This document shows positions 10,424-47,000 of a stretch of DNA of 64,000 nt, piece by piece. The position numbers were made by a program, and so were the translations under genes. The notes beneath the pieces are model-generated. The model did no database searches, was not told the origin of the DNA, and saw nothing but the letters and a program-made list of their open reading frames with translations. Origin of the DNA: Utricularia gibba (Eukaryota; Streptophyta; Magnoliopsida; Lamiales; Lentibulariaceae); the NCBI GenBank assembly GCA_002189035.1, contig NEEC01000013.1, positions 496,001-560,000 of the forward strand. Direction: 5' to 3'. Numbering within the stretch: the stretch's first letter is position 1; every line of letters starts with the position of its first letter.

Positions 10424-10992
10424 ATGATGGCCAACAATCTCACTTTCCTTCCTTTTTCGCCGGAACCGCCTCTCCTTGAAGGTATCGCCGCGGTTGTCGG
10501 CGAGCACGTCCTCTTCGGACACAGCGCCGCCGCCCAGAAACCCCTCAAAGATGCGTCGGCTACAACCCCCATCGGAGTAACCAAAGCTTACCGCGGAGTG
10601 AGGAAGAGGCCGTGGGGAGATGGTCCGCGGAGATCCGAGACCGTATTGGGAGGTGTCGACACTGGCTCGGGACGTTTGACACGGCTGAGGACGCCGCCCG
10701 GGCTTACGACGCGGCGGCCCGTCGGCTACGTGGGTCCAAAGCGAGAACCAATTTTCCGATCCCCTCCGTGGTTCCAGTGAGCGAGCCATCATCATCATCA
10801 TCATCATCGAAGAAAAAGAAGAGCGGTGGCGGCGGCGCGGTTAGATCCAACGGCGGGAAGAAGTGCCGCGTGGTGACATCGGTTGCGCATCTTTTTGGGC
10901 CGAATCTGAATCCGAATCCATCGGTGGAGATTGAAACTGGGGTTAGCCTGGAACTTGGGCTGAAGACTGCCTTCTTCAACGCAAAACAGTAG
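10424..10992 (+). CDS. AP2/ERF transcription factor with EAR-like tail (frameshifted)
   Basis: A single-exon ethylene-response-factor type regulator, expected to act in the nucleus on GCC-box-like DNA. One AP2 domain spans about residues 56-111 of the joined frame. It starts [10 protein letters not shown] and carries [23 protein letters not shown] and ARTNF. After it come a Ser run encoded by TCA repeats, a basic KKKK patch and, near the end, LELGL (about 176-180), an LxLxL EAR-type repression motif; a repressor role is inference. The frame breaks at the G-run 10614-10617, inside the conserved WGRW motif. The first frame runs on to 10780 and the second carries the rest of the domain. One extra G would give about 189 residues. 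It resembles ERF084-like proteins, but I am not certain of the subgroup. The first of two adjacent ATGs is used. Confidence 0.85.
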
Positions 10993-18471: not shown

Positions 18472-19024
18472 TCAATTCCCAACTGCAGAAGAAGAGGAAG
18501 AAGAGAGCTCTATGGAACCATAGTGGAGCAGCTCCTGAATCATCTGCTCAATCTGATCATCATCAAGAGGACTCATTTGCTCTTTATTCTGGTAGCTGCT
18601 GCTTGAGGCATCATCAACGTTCACAACAGCTGACTTACTAGGCGACGGTTCTCCTGATTTTTGAGCTAATTGCAGAGATGCTAGGTGACATTTATGGAGC
18701 TTCGCCATCAAGTTTGCTGATAAAAGGTGCTTCCCTGAAGACGCTGATTCGTTAGTGAAATTGGTGCGAGCTCTTGGTCCGCACATTATTCGGGCAGCTT
18801 CATCGTATGCACGTGCAGCATCCTCAGCGGTTTCGAACGTCCCGAGCCATATTCTCGTTTTCCTGAGATTAGAAAGAGTTGAGAAACAGAGCATAACGAG
18901 ATGTCGGCGGATGAAGGTAGGTGCGTGTGTTCATTACATACAGCAAAGGGTGGCGAATCTCGGAGACCCATGAGCCCCAATGGCGTTGGCGGACACCGCG
19001 GTAGCGCTGGTGAGATCTGGCCAT
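18472..19024 (-). CDS. ERF003: Ethylene-responsive transcription factor ERF003 type
   Basis: A nuclear AP2/ERF regulator of the group near the SHINE/WIN factors. There are two exons: 19024-18942 (83 nt) and 18862-18472 (391 nt), joined across a 79-nt GT-AG intron at 18941-18863. The joint is in phase (CT|G restores Leu) and the product is 157 residues. The AP2 domain is at about residues 8-63: [19 protein letters not shown] on exon 1, then [20 protein letters not shown] and CGPRARTNF on exon 2. The tail keeps family marks [13 protein letters not shown] and [16 protein letters not shown]. The ATG opens with MARSHQR, as in family members, and no other start is plausible. Intron position and length agree with ERF003 of Arabidopsis as I remember it. 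All expected motifs are present and it looks functional. The ERF gene at 10.4 kb belongs to a different subgroup and is not a tandem duplicate. Confidence 0.93.
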
Positions 19025-22013: not shown

Positions 22014-24073
22014 ATGACATTGGTTCCGGAGAAGTTGGTTTGCGTCACCGGTTCTGGGGGATACGTAGCCTCCTGGCTCGTCAAGCTTCTTCTCGAGAAA
22101 GGGTACACCGTGCGGGGTACCGTGCGAAACCCAGGTGAGATTCCTGCGCTGAAAATGGGAGAAACATGGAACTCCTAGAAACGTCAACTCTTATGTATCT
22201 TTTATATTATGAATGGCAAATCCAACTCTCGATTCCCGCATAGATTCATGGTTCTAAACTGAAGGAATTTCTGCATATCTAAATTTTGTAGATGATTCAA
22301 AGAACTCGCACTTGAGAGAGCTTGAGGGAGCGGATGAGAGGCTGATTCTCCTGAGAGCTGATCTCAATGACTACGGGAGCTTAATCGAGGCCATTAATGG
22401 CTGCCAGGGCGTTTTCCACACTGCGTCTCCGGTTACCGACGATCCCGTGAGTACAAATCAAGCCCACCTGTGTTTGGTCATCAGATAATAACTGGGGGCC
22501 CCTCTTAGAATAGTATGATTACCTACTCTATAAATCTATATTAAATTAAAGGTGCCCCCTTTGGTAGTGAAGTTTCAATGTGATCTTCTGGATTGCCGTG
22601 AAGAAATCATTGGTGTTGGGGGATTGGTGGGGTAGGTGTAGGCCACGGGAAATAGTTTATGCGTATTTCCTTGGGTGAGTGAGATGGCAAAGCAAATTAG
22701 GTGAAATGGGGTTTTGGGTATTTGGTAGACTTCCCATGTCGCTAATTGATTTAGTACATCCCACTTAAAGGGACATTACAACAAATTAGGTAGGCTTTCA
22801 ATGGATGATCCAAATATGATGGGACATTTTTATTTAGATTGAAATCATTGAGGAGGAGGGGGGTCACTCTTCTGACCTTCTTTTTGCTAAGGCAGCGCTT
22901 CCAAAAGTTTGCTCTCTTCTTCTAATGCATCTTAAAAATGATACTTGATATTGTGCCCTGTGAAGGAGGAGATGGTGGAACCGGCGGTGAACGGAGCGAA
23001 AAACGTGATACGGGCAGCTTCAGAAGCCAAGGTTGGGAGGGTGGTGCTCACCTCCTCCATTGGAGCCGTTTACATGGACCCTAACCGCGACAGTGAACAA
23101 GTTGTGGACGAAGGATGCTGGAGTGACCTTGAGTTTTGCAAGAACACAAAGGTAGGTAGTCGATATGGGAAGTGGCTGACCCAATTCCACGAATTGTTAT
23201 TATTATATTTTCTCTTATCTCGTCCTCTATTTCCTCAGAATTGGTACTGCTACGGCAAAGCCGTGGCCGAGAAGGCAGCGTGGGAGACGGCCTCGGAGTT
23301 GGGCGTGGACATGGTGGTGATCAATCCGGTTCTTGTGCTGGGGCCAATGCTCCAACCCACCGTCAACGCCAGTGTGCTTCACATACTCAAGTACTTGACC
23401 GGGTCAGCCAAGACATACGCCAATTCCGTACAGGCCTATGTCCATGTGAAAGACGTCGCATTGGCTCACATCCTCTTGTACGAGACTCCGGCCGCGTCGG
23501 GGAGATATCTCTGCGCAGAGAGCGTCCTCCACCGCAGCGAGGTCGTCGAGATCCTCGCCAAGTTCTTCCCGGAGTACCCCGTTCCCACCAGGTAACAATC
23601 CTCACTCATACCACACATCCTACTTCTCCTAATCAAGAGTAAAGTTTCATTCATCGTCTTCCCTAAGAAACTCGAATTTCTCCATTCGAAACTGGGCGAC
23701 GCGTGGTTTGGTTTGGTACTGACTTGGAGTCTTCTCAAGTTTTTCTCACCTGCTACGCGCATGACCCCTCTCGTTATTTTTCTTATCTTTTACGAATTGA
23801 GATGTAAAGCAAGACAAGACATGATGATGGTATGAGATAGAAGCATTTAGAACTAATGTGTGGTGGATGGGGGTGATCAGATGTTCGGACGAGAAGAATC
23901 CGAGGAAGAAAGCCTACAAGTTCTCAAATCAAAGGCTCAAGGATCTGGGGCTGGAGTTCACCAGCGTGAAGCAGTGCCTATACGACACCGTAAAGTGCTT
24001 GCAGGAGAAGGGTCATCTTCCATTACCTACCACCGCCATTCCCAGTGACAACAAATTCCTCATCAAAACTTAG
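22014..24073 (+). CDS. CCR1: Cinnamoyl-CoA reductase, five exons
   Basis: NADPH-dependent reduction of feruloyl- and other cinnamoyl-CoA esters to aldehydes, the first committed step of monolignol (lignin) synthesis, in the cytosol. The exons are 22014-22134, 22292-22446, 22966-23151, 23239-23591 and 23881-24073. All joints are in phase with GT-AG introns, giving 335 residues, the usual length. The nucleotide-binding loop [10 protein letters not shown] is at 11-20. TSS near 121-123 gives the catalytic Ser. NWYCYGK at 155-161 is the signature of true CCRs and holds the Tyr-xxx-Lys pair. [16 protein letters not shown] and [10 protein letters not shown] are typical downstream blocks. The start is the first ATG after the TATA box; the N-terminus is a few residues shorter than in many CCR1 proteins. 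The exon-3 acceptor could also be three bases later (22969). No defect is seen, so it is likely functional. Confidence 0.95.
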
Positions 24074-26840: not shown

Positions 26841-28479
26841 GGGCGTTATGTACGTGTACTATTTGGTCAGCCAAAGGAACACAACTGGATTCGCCAAGCT
26901 CAATGCGGCAGGCACATGGTAGTACTAATCAAGGTGCCCCTGGTTCAAATCGTCCCGGATCCATCCCGGGTTTCCGTTTCGACCCGTTATTCGCCTGATC
27001 ATCAAGGTGCACATCCATGGCCAGCGTTGTGAGTCCGAGGGCGGAGCATATGCTGCGCATCCCATCGGGCGCTTATTCGTAGAAGAAATCGACCAACACC
27101 AGCACTTGAGCGCACCCGACGATGAAGTATTGGGGCACTTGCCACAGAATGGACACGGGGACTCGCTCCGAGTCGAAATGGCTATGTGTTTTTGACATAA
27201 TGAACCCGAGGGCTCCGGCGCAAGCAATGGCGATGATGGAGATGAAGAGGCCATCTCTTGTGGCCCCTAGACCTTGTTGTGATAGGGGCGGGACAATCAG
27301 TCTGTCATAGATAGGGTGCAAAATATGACACCCAGAGTGTTGAAGAAGGCTAACGAGGCTGCCGGGATTTCGATTACAAGACCTTCAAGTTGTCAATTTG
27401 GCAATACACACTTGCAAAAGTGATCCCCGTCGCCCAAATGGGAACCAAACGTATCATGGCTTTTAGCGAGTCTTTCTTCTTCAAGGATCACGGCTGCCTT
27501 GTCGAAGAATCTACATGCAAAAGATTGTGTATTGATAGTTGAAACATACGCCCCAAGCTTAAAACAAGGGGGCAATTGAATGAACAAACGGGTGGTTAAC
27601 TACTGAGTTTAAAATTTAGAATAAAAGGAGACAAGTATTTCTTGACTCTAACATATAATTTTGTAATTAAAATTTCGAAGGACTGTTGATTCTGATTTTT
27701 AATATTTTATTATTTAATTTCATTGTACAGAAACAATCCATAACTTTATTGTAGTTTAATGCATGATAACAATATAATATACAATGATGAGCTTAGAAAT
27801 ATTAACTTTTTACTCTAAACTATTGGAAGTTGGAATAGAAAACTGACGGCAGATTGATTCGTGCAAATTCATTCTCTCACTAAGTATTGGAGAGATAATT
27901 CCAAAACATGATCAATTTTGTATTTTTTTTACATAAAAATTCACATAAATATAGATTTCTTGAAAAAAAAAATACATTTGATCATATTTTATATTGAAAA
28001 ATTTTAATATAATATATTACAATACAATGATATTATAAATGTATATTAACCAACAAGTTAAAACATAATCAATTAAATGCATGCAAAAATTATACAATAA
28101 AACATAAAATAATTACATAAACAATATTATTTGAATTAAAATCCCAAAGTTTTGAAAACGCACCCATGAAAATATTTGAAATTAAAATTAATCAATTCTT
28201 GATTTTCTTTTCGAATGAATATGAGTTAAGCTACTTGAGAATAATTTTGATGTAGCACGATCTCTAATAGGCAATTTTCTTACTAGATTGTGAACAAGGT
28301 CAAATGAAGATGCATCCCATCCACTCACATGAATTGGTGAATTTAATTACATTTTGTGTATTTTTGCAAATGTTTTCACTTGATAATATTTTGAAATATA
28401 AGAACTTACATTTTTATTAAATTCCTTATACATCTAGAACATGAACAAACTTAACAACTGTTATGATATTGTAAGTTAC

Positions 28480-29570
28480 ATGATACATCATAAGATAATT
28501 CGTATCTGAATAACATGCAAACATGAAATAGCTTTTTGTTGTCATTTTCCACAAGTACATGTCAAATCTGTCAAACAAAAAATATAGTAATATTTGTTTT
28601 TTCTAGAACTTTTGCTTCGAGACAGCAACATGGTATTCATTTTCTCTGCATTATATTTCTTGACCCAATAGTTGGTTGATTTATCATCATATCTTCTATA
28701 AACATAGAGCGAACATGAAGTAAATCATTGGCTCCTTTCCATGAGTAAATCCATCTTTGATTTAATATTAGTGAAAATTTTAACATATCTCTCGAAAAAT
28801 GCCCTCAACAAGAGCTTTGGGGGGGGGGGGTAATCTTTGTGCCCATATAAAACACTGTTTAATGATTCATAAATACTTGTGGTATGCACATCACATCTGC
28901 AAAAATAAGAATTATAAGATTAATATAGTAATAATATGAATAAAATTATTACATTTTGAGTTACCTTATACCATTACTATACGATAATATCCATTGCATT
29001 GAATCGATTCATAAAGATACTAAAATGCTGCTGTATTCCTATTTCTGATTTTCTGCATAATTATTTGGAACTTTTTCGTTTTTGAACTCAAGATAACCTC
29101 CCAAAATACATTAACCAAGTGTTTTGACTTGAAATTGGACACGAAATTAACAAGTAGATGTTGCATACATAATCTATAATCTCCCATAGAGTTATTGAAT
29201 GTAGGTATATCCTTAATTGTAGATAATAATCTTACACCATGATCAGTTACTAGACAAATACAACATCTTTTCACGATATGCTTAACTAAAAGGTTAAAAA
29301 ATTAATAGCAGGATTCATAAGATTCTTCCTTAACAATAACAAATGCAAGTGGAATTATAATGCGAACACCATCAAGTGTGCATGCTATTAGTAAGTGTGC
29401 ATGGTATTAGAAGATGATATCTATATTCTACATATAGATATATTCCATCAATAGTAATGACTAATCAGCAATACTGAAATGCATGGACGCATGACTCCAA
29501 AGCCCACAATACATGATGTAGCATTGGCTTGCCATCATAAGAACAAAGATTCTCATATTTAAATATAATA
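28480..29570 (-). mobile_element. Decayed Mutator-like (MULE) transposase in NPF pseudogene intron 3
   Basis: Minus-strand reading in several frames gives a plant MULE transposase in the correct order. At about 29530-29300 are WALESCVHAFQYC, ITIDGIYLY, then PLAFVIVKEESYES, matching the MULE domain core. At 29274-29020 are CLVTDHGV and YRLCMQHLLVNF with KTKKFQIIMQKI. At about 28570-28500 is CTCGK...SCLHVI, a SWIM-type zinc finger with one stop. Frameshifts and stops throughout make it inactive. Flanking AT-rich sequence from about 27530 to 31270 probably belongs to the same insertion, but terminal inverted repeats were not found by eye. Confidence 0.75.
28819..28830 (+). repeat. G12 homopolymer
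   Basis: An uninterrupted run of twelve G lies within the MULE-containing insertion. The count may not be exact, since such runs are error-prone. Confidence 0.7.
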
Positions 29571-31574
29571 TTTATGATAAAATAAATATGTTAGTAAACA
29601 TAAATCAATACTTGTAAAATAATAAAAATGAATTATGTGGATTAGTTTTTTTAATAGATAACAAATAGTAAATGAGCTTTGTCACCGATTCTTTCCAAGT
29701 GCTATACATATGCATAATATCATCTCTAATAGTAGTACATCCAAGTTTATATGATATCTTGAAATGATAAGCTTCACTAAAATCATCCAAGTACATCAAA
29801 AACACGTATCACTGGATTCGTTTTAACTTTGCTCATGATGTGAAGAAACACAAATTTCTAACAGTCATGGAACTGTTAGAAAACCAAGTATGAGGTCCCT
29901 CATGTTGTGTCGTAGTTCAAAATTGAGTAACAGTATTGTTCCATATTCTAACACACCATTCACATGGACGTGTTGCATTTTAGTTGATATAGTTTATTTC
30001 ATATTGTTTGTTGTTGCTCTTCTCAATATGGAAATGCGTTTTCAACTTTGTGACACAGTAATAACTCAATGCTTAATTTATTGAACTTTTATCTTTTAAA
30101 AAAATCCCCCTTGCATGAATCACCACTTATCCTGTCGATAAAATTCAAAGTTTTCTCAAACTCAATTGTTGTTGGAATTTCTATTGCAACGCTGTTTTCA
30201 CAATATTTCATTCTATTTATTCATCATTATCATTATTTGAAGAAAATAGAGATGAAATAACTTATTGCATCATTTTGTATTTAGCTTGCTCAATATCATC
30301 TTTCTTCATAAATGATCTGAATCCCATAATATGTTTTCGTCATAAGGTGATTCGGGTGATGAAGAATTATGATATGTTGGTGAAGTATATGAATTATTAT
30401 GACTAGTTGATACTTCTATTACATTAACTAGAGATTAAAAATACAATATAGTATTGATATACTTTAATCATATGAATTAAAAAAACACCTAAATATAATT
30501 TAAAACTAATAATAATAAAATTTATTTAGAAAAAAAATTTGCATACCATTATGTTGTTGAATGAATAAATGTATGAAGTTTAGAGTTGCACTAATATACA
30601 TATCAACATTTGAAACTATATGGCTTTAATTAAAAATCCAAGACAAATTGTTATTCGTTTGATCAAGAGGATGATTGTACTTTTGAAGACACATTGTTAG
30701 ATTTATAATAATATAATTCACAATAATACTAATAGAATACTCAACTGAAGATAATTGTATAACTTCAAAAATTAACGATATTAGCATGGATATTGAACCA
30801 TCTCGAGCAACCCAAATAGAAAATCGCAATGGTGAGTCATATCACATATTATTTTTTCCATAAAATAAGTTACCTCCCCAATAAAACTGGATCTCAATTG
30901 GATAATAAGCCATTGAAATTCTGAGAGGAAGAAAAGGAGGAAGAATGATGATATGAGAGATATATTCCATAGTATTCTTTGTTTATGAATTTTGAATTGG
31001 AAAAAAGACAAATGAATTTAATGTAACACCAAAATTTTTTCAAAATTTTAATACTAAAATCTGAACATGTCAATGTCACATGTGTACTATTGCACTGAAC
31101 GGATTGCTTTTGATATAATATAAAATGAAATAAATACAAGACACTATTTATATGAATTTTCGTGCAAAAAATAAACACAACATTCTGATATGAAAATTTG
31201 ATTAAATATTAATGAACAAAGTTGGTCATGATTTGGAATTTTCTCTTCAATACTTGGTGGTAAAAAGAATTTTATAAGATTTCTTGTATGTTGAAAAACT
31301 TTCTTGGCGCTTGCTTCGATATCAATCTTTTCATGTAGTAAGCTGGCATCCTGGGGAGCCTGCACCCTGTACTTCCTCAAGGATGCCACCAGCACTTTGC
31401 ATAGTTGAGTGATCGGACTCCCACTACGTTTTTGTTATCGGTAGAAGCGAGTTCCCAAAACGAAGGGGGAAACTACGAATATCATCAGCACACAAGGAAT
31501 CCCAAACCCCCATTTCTAGTTAACATTGGTTTGCACCCAAACCAACATAGTGCAAGCAACTATATTGCCGAAAG

Positions 31575-31747
31575 TATTAGAATATACAATCTCATATCGA
31601 AATATGAAACCAAAACAATTAAGTATATAAGAAATTATAGATCACTATTAATTGGTTGGACCTAATTTTTTTTAATATAATTCAAATTTCTTATGTACTT
31701 GGACTTCATGTATGCTCGTCCGATCTATCGGATCCTTACGTTCAACT
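31575..31747 (+). mobile_element. Solo TRIM LTR inside NPF pseudogene exon 3
   Basis: About 173 bp similar to the 171 bp LTR of the TRIM at 20020-20444. It starts TATTAGAATATAC, shares TATAGATCACTATTAATTGG and TTTCTTATGTACTTGGACTT, and ends in a CCGATCTATCGGATCCT segment. Exon 3 homology to the intact NPF gene stops on one side and resumes on the other, which shows it is an insertion. The flanks GAAAG and GAAGA may be a decayed target duplication. Confidence 0.65.
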
Positions 31748-32136
31748 GAAGATGGAACCATCTTTTGTATACCCAACTGAAGAAGGAACTTTGACTCCTC
31801 GTCTCCATTTTGTCATTTTCATCGAATTAGGTAGCCCGAAGAGAGGCGATGCATGGACGAAGTCTGCCTTCTCAATTGTCGTAGCTCAACATGAGCCAAT
31901 TGTTCTAATATTAAAATCAAAGTGATTTAATTATTGAAAAAGAAAATTAAGGGCAAAATAATTACTCTAAGACTTGATTTAGTCTTAGGCTGTTATAACC
32001 GAACTGCTAGTCTTGTGTAAGTTGACTTGAATAAGTTCTCTAATTTTGTGAAAGTAGTTGCATCTTATCCAATTGTTCTTATTCTTTAAAAGGAGGTATC
32101 TCTTTTCATATGAATCATCTGAATCATGGAAGTAAC

Positions 32137-33317
32137 TGATAGCACAATTTTTATTGTGTTTTTATATATGTTTTTAAGTGTGTTTTGTAGGGTTAAATAT
32201 TGTTTAGTGTGCTAAATTATGTCATTTTGCATATTTAGATTGTTAGAATGTGTTTATTGTGAAAACAGGCTCAATTGGCAATAATTGAGCCGAAAACTCT
32301 AATATTTCGTCTAGTCTGTGTTTTAAATCTTAGCAGGATAAGAACTAGTATTGTAGCAGCACACTTTCCGCGTTGACAAGTCAAAGGGGACAGAAAAGCT
32401 GTGCAAAAGTCACTTTCTGTTGAAAGTAGCCACCCTTCTGAAAAGTTAAGATTTGAAACATAGATCTAACTTCTAAAAGCCTGAGGAAAAGACGAAGCTA
32501 CCCTTACTTTTGAGTTGCAAAAGAAAAAAAGAAGGGAGAGAGAGAAAAGAAGACACAATGTGCATAGAGTGCACGGATAGTGAATAGTAGGAGCAGGAGT
32601 GAGGAGAACTTCATTTCTTTGGCGAATGTCTCCGGCAACCTTCAGATCTACACTTCTACATCGTCTTTCCGCCCAGAAACTTGATTTCCAGCAGATCTAC
32701 GATCGAGAGCAACCGCTGAACACTTTATTTTCCATTTTCTGCACTCCCATTTCTGTTGACAAACTAGCTGCTGTTTCCTTCTACATTTTCATGCTTTTTG
32801 TTATGTTCTTGCACCTTGTCGTGAACGATAAATCCTCTATAGAACTTATTTCCGCATATGAACATGTTCTTGCTTACGCCTTTCGTGTTTGCCTTTAAGT
32901 TTAATATGCTATTTACTGTTCTTGCAAACCCTTACTCTGTTTTCAAGCATTTTAAAGTTGGGTTTAAGCCTATGGGCTCTCTTGAGTGACACAAGAGTTA
33001 GACTCTAGTGTAAAACCTAGTAAAATCACTTTTATTTTATGCTTCCTATGCATTTGCATTAATTTCAGTGTCTCTTCATCCCTGCAACTAGTTTCTTTTA
33101 GTCACTATTATTTTAGGTTTTACTCGCGTTAGAACTAAACCCCAGAAAACCCCATGTTTTCAGTAAATGTGATAAATTTCAAGAAATTGCAACCATTCCC
33201 TGTGGATTCGATCCTTGCTTGCCACACTACATTAATTTCTGTGATTTGTGTAGTAGAATAGTTAGGTTTATAAATTTTTTTTGATGCATTGAATGTGCTA
33301 GACCGTGATATTTAACA
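32137..33317 (+). repeat. LTR-like repeat, copy 2, splitting NPF pseudogene exon 3
   Basis: An inverted-orientation counterpart of 362-1533. It starts TGATAGCACAATTTTTATTG and ends GTGCTAGACCGTGATATTTAACA (only part identical between copies), about 1.18 kb, TG...CA. Near its end is CCCTGTGGATTCGATCC, a phrase common near LTR ends of plant Ty3/gypsy elements. No clean target duplication is seen. A 99-codon open frame at 32599-32898 lies inside the repeat and is probably not a gene. Confidence 0.7.
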
Positions 33318-34209
33318 ACCCATTTAAACGTTCATCAATAATTGATTTGGTGAGTAGTTAAAAATACCTTTAGGAGGGGTGTTGTATGGGATAAATGTAT
33401 GCTATTAGTAAGGTTAATAAATGTACCGGAAAAAAATTATACCAATTATCAAACACACATTATGTATCCCAATACCAGGTATATCTATGCTTATACTAGC
33501 TACCAAACACAACCTTAGGACATTGAATTACCAAGTCTTTAGTCTCTTCATTTTCTTGTTCTTATTCTTTTGTGTTTTCTTTATTCATTCTAGTGTACAT
33601 CGATTTTGGCTTCATTGTTCATCGGTTTTAGCTGTGGAAGCGAGGCCAATATAGCCAACAACACCATCCCCTGAACCACATATGAAAGAAGCTTATTCAT
33701 TAAACATGAACCCCTGTATAAGAGAGTGTGTCAAACATAGTTTAACATTGATTATTCTAATGCATACTAGTGAATGAATTAAACAACTCACAACAATGTA
33801 GATGATCAAGAAGATGAGTATGCTCCATTATCTTCCAATATATTCATTGGCCACAAATGCTGGCATCAGAGGGGTTACGTAGCATGTGCCAGTTCAATTT
33901 GTGACACTTATACAAGCATCGTAGTTGCTTCGCCCGATCCTATTCTTGAAGTAGACTACCAAATTACGGCTCACACCATCATAGACAACTCCCTCAAAGC
34001 ATGCATCTATTGAGTGAAGGAAAACCCTCAAATTAGATGAGCAAGAACTAGACTCGGGGTTCCGGGTTAAGTTCAAAGTGAAACATGACGATACCTAAAA
34101 CAAAGGTGCAAGCTTTCCATCCCCCGGTTAAGCTCTTCTTTTCTGGATTACCCTGGAAATCCGAGGCTCCATCTTTTGCACAAACATCCTCTTCAGGCAT
34201 GGGGTGCTA

Positions 34210-36702: not shown

Positions 36703-38828
36703 TTACAGCATCTTGTACGTGTACCAGTTGGACAAGAAAAGAAACACCACCAGATTCAGCATGCTCAGCACAATCATCAGATAGTAGAAGTAGTCAAGAT
36801 GTCCGTAGTTCAAGTTATCCTGGATCCATCCCGCGTTTCCGCCATGACTGGTTACTAGTGTTACAATGCTGACCATCAAGGTGCTCATGAAGTTCCCCAT
36901 GGCCAGTGTCGTGAGTCCAAGAGCCGAGCATAGGCTTCGCATCGTGTCAGGGGCTTGTTCATAGAAGAACTCAAGCTGCCCCACCAACACAAACACTTCT
37001 GCGCACCCGAGAATGAAGTACTGAGGCACCTGCCAGAGAATGGACATGGGAATTTGCCCCATGTCGTGGTAATCGTGTCTTTTGACGTAGTTCAACCTGA
37101 CGAGCTCGAGGAGCCCTGCATAAGTCATGGCGATTATTGAGATGAAGAGACCAGCACCCATCCGTTGGAGCTGAGTTAGGCCGTTTCTGTGCCCTGTAAA
37201 CCTTCTGCTTACAGGAACAATGATCCTATCATATATCGGAGTCCAGAAGAGAACACTCAGAGTGTTGAAGAAGACCAACGAGGCTGCCGGGATTTCAAAG
37301 TTCGAATTTCCGATACGGGCATCCATTGTAAGACCTTGGAGCACGAAGAAGCTGTCAATTTGACAGTACACACACGCAAATGTGATTCCTGTGGCCCAAA
37401 TGGGAAGCAAACGTATGATGGCTTTCAGTTCTTCCACTTCAGTTACTGTGCAGAGCCGCCATGGATTCACTGTTAACTTCAGTTTGTCTTCTTCTATTAC
37501 AACAGCAGCCTTGTCAAAGAATCTGTAGCCAAAAACACACGTGGAGAGTCAATAAAAAAACCTCGAGAGCTTCTTCTATATTACTGAAACTTACGAAAGG
37601 TCTTTTGTATGTTGAAGATGCTTCCTGCTTCCTTCGACGTCTGAAACTTCGTATAGCAGCCTGACGTCCTCAGGAACTCGAGCCTTGTACTTCCGCAATG
37701 AGGCTACGAGCACTCTACAAATTTGAGTGATCGGACTCCCGTTCGGTCGCTGGTGTCGATAGTAGCGAGTTCCGGCAACAAAGGCAACGACGACGATGAC
37801 CATGAACATGGAAGGAATCCCAAAGCCCCATTGCCAGTTGACATTCATCTGCACCCAAACCAGGGCCGTACAAGCGATCATACTTCCCATGTTAATTGAG
37901 AAATACATCCAATTGAAGAATGAACTTCGACTCCTCTTCTCGGCTTCGTCGTTCTCATCAAACTGGTCAGCACCAAAAGAGGAGACACATGGACTAACTC
38001 CACCCGACCCAAGCGCGATCATGTAAAGGGCTACGTAGAAAAACGAGGCTTGCATCTCCGTCGCGTGGCACGAGCCTACCTCACCTTCACAGTTGGAAGG
38101 TCTCAAGCCTGGAATCGACGCCGACGACACCAATAATAACATCCCCTAGACATGAGAAATTCATAGGGTTAGTTAATCTCGAATCAGGCTTTAGTTTCTA
38201 AAGCGAAAACACACAAACTTACAAGAGCGTAGATGATCAGGAAGACCACTATCGTCCAATATCTTCCAATGTAGGCATCAGCCACAAATGCCCCAATCAA
38301 CGGAGTCACGTTGCAGGCTCCCGCCCAATTCGTGACATTCACAGAAGCACTCGAACTGCTCTCCCCTATCTGATTCTTGAAGTAGACCACCAAGTTCCGG
38401 CTCATGCCATCGTACGCCAATCCCTCAAAGCATGCATGCACTGCAATTTCATATTGAAGGTTGAGACTTTGAACCTCATGCGGAAAATACAGAAATTCAG
38501 AACTCGTCTCTACAAAAGCTAGTGCACCGATTGAGTTTACAATGCGAGCTGCTCACAATAAAAAATATTTCACAAACTCTATTACTTGAGTTTTACTCGT
38601 TGCAATTCTTATCTAAAATTCTAATACGAAACCTAAGATGAAGGCGCAGGCTTTCCATGTCCCGGTGGAGCTCCTCCTGGCCGGATCGCCGTGGAAATCC
38701 AACGTCCCGTCTTTAGTATGCGAATCCTCTTCAGACATGGGTTTCATGCTGCATTGAGGAGCGCCGCCAAGTGATTGTTTGTATGAAGAAGAAGGTGCAT
38801 GAAGTGAAAGCAAGGGAGTACCTTCCAT
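36703..38828 (-). CDS. NRT1/PTR family (NPF8-like) transporter, four exons
   Basis: A major-facilitator membrane transporter of the plant peptide/nitrate family. The exons are 38828-38633, 38440-38223, 38145-37595 and 37522-36703; all joints are in phase with GT-AG introns. The product is 594 residues from 38828, or 567 from the Met at 38747. Family marks include GTWKACAFIL, NLVVYF, TPLIGAFVADAYIGRYWTI, SSFGADQFDENDE, FFNWMYFSIN, ILWQVPQYF and GHLDYFYYL. The order and spacing fit the 12-helix NPF fold and most resemble NPF8 dipeptide transporters. The ExxER proton-coupling motif of helix 1 reads A-C-F-E-G, losing the first Glu and the Arg. A TATA-like TATATAT overlaps the 38828 ATG, so 38747 or 38738 (MKPMSEED) is the likelier start. 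Substrate is unknown. A broken tandem copy lies downstream at 26850-34200. Confidence 0.92.
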
Positions 38829-38834
38829 ATATAG
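38826..38834 (-). promoter_or_regulatory. TATA-like motif overlapping the first NPF ATG
   Basis: The minus strand reads CCTATATATGG here. If this is the TATA box, transcription starts about 30 bases downstream and the ATG at 38828 is not in the mRNA, which favours the Met at 38747. That product (567 residues) is closer to the length of NPF8 proteins. Confidence 0.45.
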
Positions 38835-41800
38835 GTCTGATTCCGCTGACTAAAATGAAACTGTTTTTATAGGAAAAATGGGTCCGATCTCCTCTCCCCC
38901 ATCCTTTTTTTAATATTTAACTGGGAAGAGTTGACTGCGGAGTGCTGAAAGCGGAGTGTCTTGTGAAGCATTGATGGAGCACTGGAAAATGAATCAGCCG
39001 TCGATATCATGTAATCGTCTCTGGAAAAAAAGTACCCTCAGAAAGTCAAATTGGGGATTAGGGCAAAATCCCAACCCGCTCGCTCCTCCGCCACGAAATT
39101 GATTGTGTGGATTTACAACGGAAATATACCTCTCTTGTGGTTGTGTTCCTCAGAGAGTCTCTTCACATAATTCTAAATGAACCAAACTTTTACGCATACC
39201 TTCGTTTTTCGTAAGGAGCCTAAATCTCTATTTTTACTATTCTGTTTTGTATGTTATCAATTATATAAAAAAATATTTTGATAATGGAAAAATTGTGTCA
39301 GTAAATAGTAATTACTATTATGTATCTAAATTAGTCTTCAAAACAATGTTTTAGTTATTACTATTTGAAAATTATTTATAATTGATAAATACGGTTCGAA
39401 AATCAATAAAAATAGTCTCTATTATTTAAATTAACAACGAAATTGATTCCCAATTTAAAACCTTTATTCTTTTCGTAATTCAATTTTATTATTTTTGATT
39501 GACTTTACATCCCTTATAACCACTGCCCACTGTCTACACATGAACCACCCGCCGCTGGTATTTAAACAATTGGAATAAATAAAATTTGGATAAACCATTG
39601 AGTAACATAAAAACTTGTAGACATAATGACGGTAACTGTCAGGAATATTAAAAACAATGTAAAAATCGCAACAGGGTCTCTGCGGCAGCACCTGCAACAA
39701 AAAAAAAAACAAAAAAAATAAATAAAAATAAGTAAAATACAAGCATTCCAGTGTAAAAATAAAAATATTCGAGACATTGTAAATAATGTGTTTTTTAATT
39801 TACCTGTGCATTGATGACATGGCAAACACTCATTTTGGGTTTGAATACCTACAGCTTTATTTTAATCAAAACCAAATTTTGTAGTATAGCACTACAAACA
39901 CTCGTACTTGTCTTAAAATTTACACTGTGGGCACCCCTGTTCCTGTTTTCAGTGCCTACAGTTTCTATCAGCTGTAACGGGTTAACTTCAGAGACTGCAA
40001 AGGAGTTTTCTGTGGTACTTGTTATCTCATATATCATTTTAAATTTCATTTAAACACTTGTCTGTGGTATGTGGCTGTTTTTAATATTCAAAGTGCATGC
40101 AATGCAGGGTAAGATGTTGTATGATTACCAATACACAATTGTGGTTAAAATAGGAATTGATTAAAAATTATACGGTTGAAGTGTGTCATTACGTGGCCGC
40201 AATCAATGGATCGGATAATTATTTTTGGTCACATGTTGTTTCAGATAATAGTATCATTAAATGAAGTCTCTAATTACTTGCTTACTCTTTTAGGCTATCT
40301 TAATTACAATATATATTTGACGTATTTATTCTTTTTTCTCATCTAAAGTTCATCTTTAGCATAAAAAAATTAGAATGCAAAATTTATTCAGTGAAGCTTT
40401 TTCAACCTAATTGAAATCATTGGCCAAGGATTTTGAAATACAAAAAAGTATTTTTAAGATAAAAGAATCTTTTTATTAATTAAAATAATTTTACAGATAA
40501 ATGTTATGGAAAAGGAAAATTATTCATGGATCTCAAAAGACTAGATCGAGGTTGGTATCTGCCAAACCTTTTTGTACGAGGAGAAGAAGAGGGGATGGCA
40601 TACCTTATAAAGGGGTGCAGCATCCATCTAATAGGAACATACCCTATGACTGAGATGTAGTGCAGCCCGCTTCGCACGATCTTCATTACATGATCATGAG
40701 ATGGGGTTTGGTTAAATAGTCGGTGCTTCACGCTGTAAGAGGTCGCTAAGAATACAAAAGATGGCAGCTGCAGCTCAATGTAAGGGAAGAGAGAAGAATA
40801 CATTTCCGTGATGGATTTCTAGTTCATTCAAAATATACTTGTTATTATTGTGTGAACCAACTCTAGCATTTCCATCGTACTGGAGCGATTCGCGAAGAAC
40901 CGGTTTCATGGAATTATGACACTCAACAACACAGATTCTAAATGGCAAAATCTTTCCCAAGTGAGAGCAGGGAAGGCGATAACCATACATTTCTAATTTT
41001 GTCAGTTTTATGGATCGCTGCTCGTCATTTTCTTTAACTATTAATGTACATTTAATATTTATTAAATCGACCAAAAATAATAAATAAAATTTGTAGTAAT
41101 AAAATGCTAAAATAATATACAAAATACATTTTAGAAACAATTTACTGGTTACTGAAAAAAAAAATAGTTCTTGCAATTTCATTCAAACCTTATTCATATT
41201 TTTAGTATATTTGACTTCATGTGGTTTTGCGATGCATCCCCAATTTTGTCAATTTTTCGGATTATCATCTTGACTTATCATTTTCTTTAACTATTAATTT
41301 AAATTTAATATTAATTAAATCGACCTAAAATAATAAAAAAAACTTTGTAGTAATAGAATACTAAAATAATATACCAAACAAATCTTAGAAACGTAAGGCA
41401 ATATTTAACTTTAATGAACTCTTAAATTAATAATCATATCTTGAACTATGCTAATTACTAGATACCTCACCAACAGTTTCATCATAAAATATAATGGATG
41501 GTTGGTTTGAGGGCTAAACCATTTCATCATATAAAACACGTAGTTGAGAAAAGAATGTAAATAGGACGAATCCCATGCACCGTGTGGTGTGTGTGTGTGT
41601 GTGTATTAGTGAAGAAGCAATGAGGTGAGCACAAAGTCCGTCCATACGCGTTCAAAATCCATGGGGATGTACTTGTACTGTCCACCTACCACAATTGTCA
41701 CAGCGGTTGATTCGCGTAATTAAGGGCCTGGATTCAATGGAGCCACTTGAAGGCTTGACGTTAATGATGTCATTAGTCAAGGATTAAATCTGATTAGTAA

Positions 41801-44050: not shown

Positions 44051-47000
44051 CTAGAGAATACAATTTTATCAATCCATAAAAATTTTGAACAAATTTACCT
44101 GCCATTCTTGTGCTAATACTCCGGTATTCGAGGTTGATTAATAACTTGGTGACAACTGTGGAATTATTGAAAAAAAAATGACAATGGCAATTGCTCCGCC
44201 ATCAAAGTTTGATGGCACACACTATGCTATTTGAACAAAAATGATGAGAAATTACGTCATAAATATCAAGGTTTGAGAGGTTTTCATCAAACTTAATCTT
44301 CCACTAGGTTTGTTAGATACTTCTGAAAAAGGAAAGAACTCAACCAAAGAGAAAAATAATTATATAGAGTTGGAATTCACCGCAGCTCATGATCACAACA
44401 GAGCTCCCACAATGGAAATCTACGAAAAGTTATTAAATTATGAAACACCAAAAGAATTATGGATAGCATTGCAAAACATCTATGGGACTACAACTATCAA
44501 CAAGGACCAAAAAATTGATAGAATATGACATTTTATTGAAGAACTTAGCATTACATTTGTAATCACAGATTTCTCCACCAAACTTTTAGGCTTTCTAGAT
44601 AGCCTTGAAGCTTTGGAAGAGAAAATTGATGAAAAATGGATTAAACACAAAATTATTAGCTCCTTACATGTTTCTTTTCAACCTCTTGTAGGAATGCTTG
44701 AGATGACTGGAACACTAAGAACAATGATACACTTACAACTCCTTGATGATCTTTTAGGATATACATGGAAATAAAGGCACGCATTCTAGCAAGAGACAAG
44801 ATTATCAACATAATGTCAAGGAAAAAGGCAAAAATTCTTAAGGATTCAGACACTAAGGAGGAAGATCCTTATCCATACTACAAGAGATTTCAGCCAGATG
44901 AATATTGGTACCATCCTAAAGTAACTTGTGAAAAATGCCACAAAAAGGTTATGTAATGTGAGTTTGTATAAGATGCAAGAATCAGGTTAAAACAAAAACA
45001 ACATTAAACAAATTCAATGTAAAGGATCTAGCAAAATTCTTATCTTTTTTAAACATAAACACAAGATCAACAAAATCTGAGAAAGTTAACATTTAAACTA
45101 TGTGTCAAGCCACTATATTCTCAGCGATGAAAATGTTGAAATCTAAAAAAAAATATAACTATTGGATAGTGGATGCAGCAAGCCTATGGGGCAATTGGTA
45201 CAAAAAAACTTCAAGGTTCAATTTACAAAGGGAATTTTCAAAATTAAGAACCTAGTCGGAACTGCTGTGTTGGAAGTTTTGATATTTAAAAGAGTCTTTC
45301 CTCTAAACTTTTAGATTGATGATAAATTGGAAGAAGTGTGCCTTATAACAAAGGAAGGTATAAATATCTAGCATAAATGATTAGGGGACATAAATTATTC
45401 AAAACTGTTTAAGGTGTCATCACAATCATGAGCAATGGTTCAAAGACTGTCTCCCTTAAGAAAAGAAGATGAAATCTGTAGCACCTGTCAAATTGGAAAA
45501 ATGCACAAATTACCATTCGGTCTTGGAACCTATCAAGTAGGAAAATGTGAGAATTAATATGTAACGATCTAGGATCTATTGGAAGTTCTTACCTTATTCA
45601 GAAACAAATATTTCTTGATCTTTACAGATGACTTTACCAAATTTGGTTGGGTTTTCCTTTTAAACAAAAATCAAAAGTGCTTGAAAAATTCAAGATTTTT
45701 GGAGCAATAGTTGAAGAACAAAATGAACAATCCATTCAATTTTTGAGGTCAGACAATAGAAAAGAATACATTCCTGATGAGCTGCAAAAATATTGTGAAG
45801 AACATGAAATAATTCACCAATTCAAAACACTTCACATCCTAGAACAAAATGGTGAGGAGAATCAAGATATCAACCTATTATGAAAATGAGTTGATGCGTG
45901 ATATTTGAGAAAAACCAATCTTGAAAAATTCTTGAGTAAAGCTGTAAATATTGCTACATATCTTTTTTAGTTAACTCCTTACCGCTAGACAAAAAGCAAG
46001 AAAAACACTATATGAATTGTGGTATAATAGGAAGGTTAACATAAAGTATGTGAGAATCTTTGGATTATAGTGTTATGTATACTTGCTAATGCAATTGAGA
46101 AGTAAATTGAATTTAAAATGCATAGTCGGAGTTTATATGGATTTTACTTAAATAATTAACACATATAGAGTCTATGATCTAACTAAGAACAAAATTCTAG
46201 TTAGCATACATATTATTTGTTACGAGAGAAAGGAGTTTGACTGGAAAAACTTCAATTAGAGTAGCATATTAAGAACTTGCAATACCATAAATGAGTATAG
46301 GTTTGTTTCTTCATTTCCTACTTCAACAAACATGGAGTTTGTAACAACTAAAGATTACAAGTAAAATGAAATCATTAATGATATTGATGTAGAAAATAGG
46401 GACTCAAGGATAGACATTGAAAGAAATACATACACTATAGAAGAATATGAAAGTGAACATGATTCAAATTGTTGAAAAGTGGAACACATCAGGAAACCTT
46501 AAGATATCTTGACAATGAAGACCAAGAATTTGCAACAAAATCAAAAAAAGATAGTTTAGTAGAGGAGAAGCAAGAAAATGAAGACAGAAATGATGAATCA
46601 CAACGAGGGTTTTCAAGCTTAACAAATATTTATAATAGACGTCTTATGATGCTGAAAAATAAAAGTGTAAATAAAGCGCTCAGTCATCACGTTAAAAAGT
46701 TGGCAATGAAACAAGAACTTGAATACATCGAGAAATTTCATACTTGGAGCTTACTATCAAAACCCAAAAACTACAAACCTATTGAGATAAAGTGGGTGAT
46801 TCTAATAAAGTTGAATGCAGATGGGATTGTAAACAAATTAAAGACTAGATTGGTATGTAAATAATACACTCGAAGACTTGAAATTGAATATCAAGAGACC
46901 TTTGTTCCCGTCGCATGGTTGGATACAATCAAATTTCTCTTAGCCATTGCAGCATTTTAAAGATAGGAAATATATCAATTAAATATTATAGTCATATTTT

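Follow-up and report, generated by a model that had tools for sequence, protein, structure and literature searches.

We analyzed a window of 64,000 nucleotides from Utricularia gibba (contig NEEC01000013.1, positions 496,001 to 560,000), which carries an intact NPF8-like transporter gene and a broken NPF8-like copy on the same strand (Table 1). The first-pass annotation had described the former as complete, and the spliced translation agrees: four exons joined by GT-AG introns encode 567 aa with zero internal stops. The boundary initially assigned to the gene, at 38828, falls within a TATA-like element and not within the coding sequence. Exon 1 shares 74% identity with exon 1 of a paralogue on contig C142, and exon 2 begins with V-H-A in the intact gene as well as in both C142 paralogues.

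Table 1 Features of the window (coordinates refer to the 64,000-nucleotide stretch).
Feature	Position	Strand	Description
AP2/ERF-type transcription factor fragment	10480-10992	plus	assigned from the translation only
AP2/ERF-type transcription factor fragment	18472-18930	minus	assigned from the translation only
Reductase ORF	22942-23595	plus	cinnamoyl-CoA-reductase-like, NAD(P)-dependent; assigned from the translation only
Broken NPF8-like copy	26850..34203	minus	stops and gaps; A-C-F-E-G, D49, R53; TM2 Tyr kept, TM4 Arg
Exon pieces of the broken copy	34203-34096, 34010-33777, 33670-33605, 31868-31767, 31584-31267, 27509-26850	minus	
NPF8-like gene, whole CDS	38747-36703	minus	4 exons, GT-AG introns
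Exon 1	38633..38747	minus	N-terminus to start of TM1, ends ...WKACAFIL+G
Exon 2	38223..38440	minus	TM1 A41-C-F-E44-G45-L-A-Y48-D49-G-M-S-R53; TM2 with N82
Exon 3	37595..38145	minus	TM3-TM6; TM4 GGVS162PCVSS, Lys lost; TM5 N196 kept
Exon 4	36703..37522	minus	TM7-TM12; TM7 D351, TM8 N381 (changed), TM10 E470 (kept); stop TAA
TATA-like element	38825..38835	minus	78 bases upstream of the ATG of the intact gene; sequence match only
Copia-type retrotransposon ORFs	44277-45883	plus	broken; assigned from the translation only

The intact protein matches PF00854 (PTR2) with 383.8 bits at a cut-off of 27 and covers the full profile (positions 1-392 of 392), which places it in the POT/NPF family. The nearest solved structures, both matched over their full length, are AtNPF6.3 (5a2n, 4oh3; E = 3e-129) and AtNPF2.10 (9ui1; E = 3e-109), which differ from the intact protein in having a complete motif and a TM4 Lys or Arg. 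Genome searches yielded ten NPF8-type loci in addition to the broken copy of the window, and these same-genome paralogues formed our comparison set. In a tree of these paralogues rooted on NPF6.3, the intact protein nests among those with NPF8-type E..ERLAYYG. Its nearest relatives are NPF8-type paralogues with 65-75% identity over exon 4 (among the canonical ones up to 71%, for C2) and not members of the NPF7 clade; the POT fold and the four-exon structure of the canonical paralogues are shared as well. Together with the codon models below, these features point to a complete, probably NPF8-type transporter of POT fold that selection has retained.

Helix 1 of the intact protein reads VHACFEGLAYDG, with V-H-A41-C-F-E44-G45-L-A-Y48-D49-G at its core. 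Within this helix the residue numbering coincides with that of AtNPF6.3, and relative to the crystal sequence E41 is replaced by Ala and R45 by Gly, while E44 is kept; D49 occupies the position of the second Tyr of the canonical LAYYG. Five NPF8-type paralogues of the same genome (C2, C3, C505, C142c and C375b) are canonical, and all of them carry E..ER and LAYYG together with the TM4 Lys. Thus, gene model, AtNPF6.3 alignment and the five canonical copies all support the earlier claim that ACFEGLAYDG stands in place of ExxER-LAYYG, and the complete ExxER/K in TM1 of canonical H+-coupled POTs is reduced to A41-x-x-E44-G45. One escape named in the first-pass annotation, a different intron 1/exon 2 junction, fails: none of the 63 GT/GC-AG junction pairs tried for intron 1 (in frame and stop-free) gave E..E[RK]. 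Alternative splicing that restores ExxER is thereby ruled out and the motif loss stands. More broadly, the chance that an assembly, gene-model or splice error masks a normal ExxER is negligible, and at the genome level such an error is excluded: exon 2 itself holds the Arg>Gly and Tyr>Asp codons, no frame-keeping junction gives the motif, and the A and D changes recur at three other loci, namely C142a, C142b and the broken copy.

The changes extend beyond helix 1. In POT structures, a bound dipeptide is held at its C-terminus by the ExxER Arg together with a TM2 Tyr, and at its N-terminus by two Asn and a TM10 Glu; mammalian PepT2, for example, uses R57 and Y94 for the former and E622, N192 and N348 for the latter (PMC11265797). 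Proton-driven uptake also needs a TM4 Lys (PMC3950950). Two losses that had escaped the first-pass annotation affect these sites, TM2 Tyr to N82 and TM4 Lys to S162, so that the canonical pair of TM4 Lys/Arg with TM10 Glu reads S162 with E470. Compared with canonical NPF8 proteins, the intact protein therefore lacks the first Glu and the Arg of ExxER, the LAYYG Tyr, the TM2 Tyr and the TM4 Lys. In the alignment the carboxylate-binding half is replaced at four residues (R45G, Y49D, Y82N and K162S), and the amine-binding half is kept (E470 in TM10, N196 in TM5). Position 381 is Asn in the intact protein and in bacterial and mammalian POTs, but Asp in the canonical plant paralogues. Two acidic residues were gained, D49 in TM1 and D351 in TM7, whose location in the pocket follows from the AtNPF6.3 alignment. 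Among the sites invariant in the five canonical paralogues, 44/266 are changed overall versus 5/9 of the published coupling and pocket positions (Fisher p = 0.0075, a guide only, since the nine positions were assembled from published lists after the alignment had been seen). From the replacements, the side of the pocket that binds the peptide carboxylate is predicted to be lost.

The loss of the first Glu is shared by a clade of five members: the intact gene, C142a, C142b, C98a and the broken copy. C142a reads A..DE with D49 and a TM4 Arg, C142b reads A..EA with D49 and a TM4 Asn, and C98a reads L..ER, keeps the Tyr and has a TM4 Arg. Position 44 is acidic (D or E) in all five. On the tree, the loss of the first Glu is the oldest step and maps to the base of the clade; that of R45 followed, with D49, R53 and D351 arising; the changes of TM2 Tyr to Asn and of the TM4 charge to Ser came last and only in the intact gene. 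D49, R53 and D351 are common to the intact gene, C142a, C142b and the broken copy, but this says little about constraint, since the intact protein and C142a are 73.5% identical overall anyway, and the sharing could be drift. Compared with the neighbouring C142a, C142b (L043:2250-4194; C142, about 921.7-923.7 kb) lacks one base in exon 3, and it is probably a pseudogene. Near the complete C98a, a further C98 copy was found as exon 4 only (L045:889-1698; about 1448-1449 kb). Outside this clade, three other NPF genes (L007, L016 and L024) have GxxER in helix 1 and, in place of the TM4 Lys, a Thr, Pro or Ile; by sequence, this genome holds one or more further NPF clades in which the first Glu and the TM4 charge are lost jointly.

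The broken copy has the same A-C-F-E-G, as had been noted before; it lies in the exon piece at 34010-33777 (IDACFEGVVYDG). Its pieces group with C142a at a bootstrap of 100, apart from the intact gene, which rejects a recent tandem duplicate of the latter. The duplication separating the two is therefore old. The earlier conclusion that the motif change came before the duplication holds, and the change is also older than the divergence from a paralogue that stands at a dS of about 1.1.

Codon models show that the intact gene is under purifying selection. Its pairwise omega against C142a is 0.14 (dS 1.1), and in a branch model over 525 codons its branch has an omega of 0.137 against a background of 0.146. 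Neutrality (omega = 1) on this branch, the shortest within the clade, is rejected with 2dlnL = 21.3, and with it gene decay. These values bear on the idea of a non-transporting sensor or regulatory paralogue, or of a gene that died so recently that it is still free of disabling mutations. The clade does lose members, as the broken nearby copy and C142b show; however, the low omega, the short branch, and the intact frame and splice sites make this idea very improbable, even if constraint as such cannot separate a transporter from a sensor.

What do the replacements mean for transport? Experiments on POTs have linked the second Glu of ExxER to proton coupling. We consider it an even chance that the intact protein is a substrate-shifted, "atypical" POT without the carboxylate clamp, in which E44 would be the likely remaining proton site. 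In canonical POTs the first Glu helps to release the contact between Arg and peptide; here it would have been lost together with the carboxylate-binding half (R45, Y49, Y82, K162), while the amine-binding half (E470, N196) and E44 were retained and D49 and D351 gained. The likely cargo would be a solute that is cationic or bears an amine, or else a peptide held by its side chain and not its carboxylate, and proton coupling, if any, would rest on E44. This is the most likely substrate class and residual coupling that we infer for the protein, and judging from sequence its cargo is probably something other than ordinary small peptides. For the earlier suggestion that it "may carry something else", R45G, Y49D, Y82N and K162S in a gene under purifying selection provide good support.

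E. coli has two atypical POTs, DtpC (YjdL) and DtpD, that offer a precedent for the substrate shift: both lack the first Glu and the Arg, keep the second Glu and have an acidic pocket residue (PMC9309889). A DtpC-like mode of working would entail proton coupling and a preference for Lys-containing dipeptides. DtpC (QxxEY) has lost the first Glu and Arg together, carries a pocket Asp (392) and is a working proton-coupled transporter; the absence of its first Glu has been put down to the lost contact between Arg and peptide, with substrate selection passing to the pocket Asp (PMC9309889). The same combination, with the first Glu and Arg lost, the second Glu kept and a pocket acid gained, is found here with A41, G45, E44, D49 and D351, the pocket position again resting on the AtNPF6.3 alignment. 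However, DtpC and DtpD are distant relatives, and the DtpC acid is D392, whereas the intact protein has D49 and D351. Moreover, the TM4 lysine, described as critical in YjdL (Jensen 2014, as cited in PMC9309889), is S162 in the intact protein, and this dependence may count against a substrate shift. We suggest only tentatively that a plant NPF8 lineage independently evolved the DtpC solution, removing the first Glu, the Arg and the carboxylate clamp, keeping the second Glu for protons and selecting a cationic or amine substrate with new pocket acids.

Published work on the motif is divided, and some mutant studies argue for lost coupling. In AtNPF6.3, the single mutants E41A, E44A and R45A each lose nitrate uptake (PMC3950950), and in MtNPF1.7 E41A does not complement (PMC8282211). 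The main rival to a substrate shift, which we regard as unlikely, is an uncoupled facilitator: with the first Glu, Arg and TM4 Lys lost, the protein would transport passively, as a uniporter or efflux carrier comparable to the nitrate/chloride exporters of NPF2a (NAXT). NPF2a proteins lack the motif and several of them are passive anion transporters (PMC6288477); in NPF7, too, the motif is incomplete or absent and the TM4-TM10 pair is missing, so that the lost TM4 charge has a parallel there. That the TM4 Lys is critical in DtpC and lost here speaks for a passive carrier. Yet both are separate clades, mostly without a chargeable motif residue (none in NPF2a), whereas the intact protein keeps E44 and its clade an acid throughout. 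The pocket has lost positive charges, which disfavours an anion substrate, and proton coupling has been seen in some motif-less NPF7s (PMC12780319). Because DtpC remains proton-coupled without the first Glu and Arg, it is unsafe to conclude from the lost ExxER that coupling is lost. For the proposal that the protein "may work by a different mechanism", the loss of the first Glu and the Arg has to be weighed against the retained E44, the acid at position 44 across the clade and the coupling of DtpC.

The opposite reading, an ordinary proton/peptide symporter that tolerates the motif changes and moves the same substrate, is improbable. The POT fold and E470 are retained, and the MtNPF1.7 mutants K45A, E44A and R162A complement fully; however, E41, replaced by Ala here, is the sole essential residue of the motif in that protein (PMC8282211). 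In addition, every residue of TM1, TM2 and TM4 that would bind the carboxylate is replaced, although the five canonical copies keep them all.

NPF8 proteins without ExxER are already a known kind. In a survey of 2383 plant NPFs from 42 genomes, 38% lacked the complete motif; among NPF8s, 61/282 (22%) lacked the complete ExxER/K and 38/282 the TM4-TM10 pair (PMC6288477). Our literature search for a functional description of an ExxER-less NPF8 returned none, only general surveys. The intact gene offers a natural combination of changes kept by selection, while the laboratory studies considered here have mostly made such changes singly, and its protein could help to decide between two roles of ExxER, in proton coupling or chiefly in the release of substrate. 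If its uptake were still pH-driven, the second Glu alone would suffice in a plant NPF. The gene is also a warning against equating "no ExxER" with "passive". Should the DtpC-like solution prove true, the POT family would supply plants with a transporter for amines, cationic metabolites or Lys/Arg peptides.
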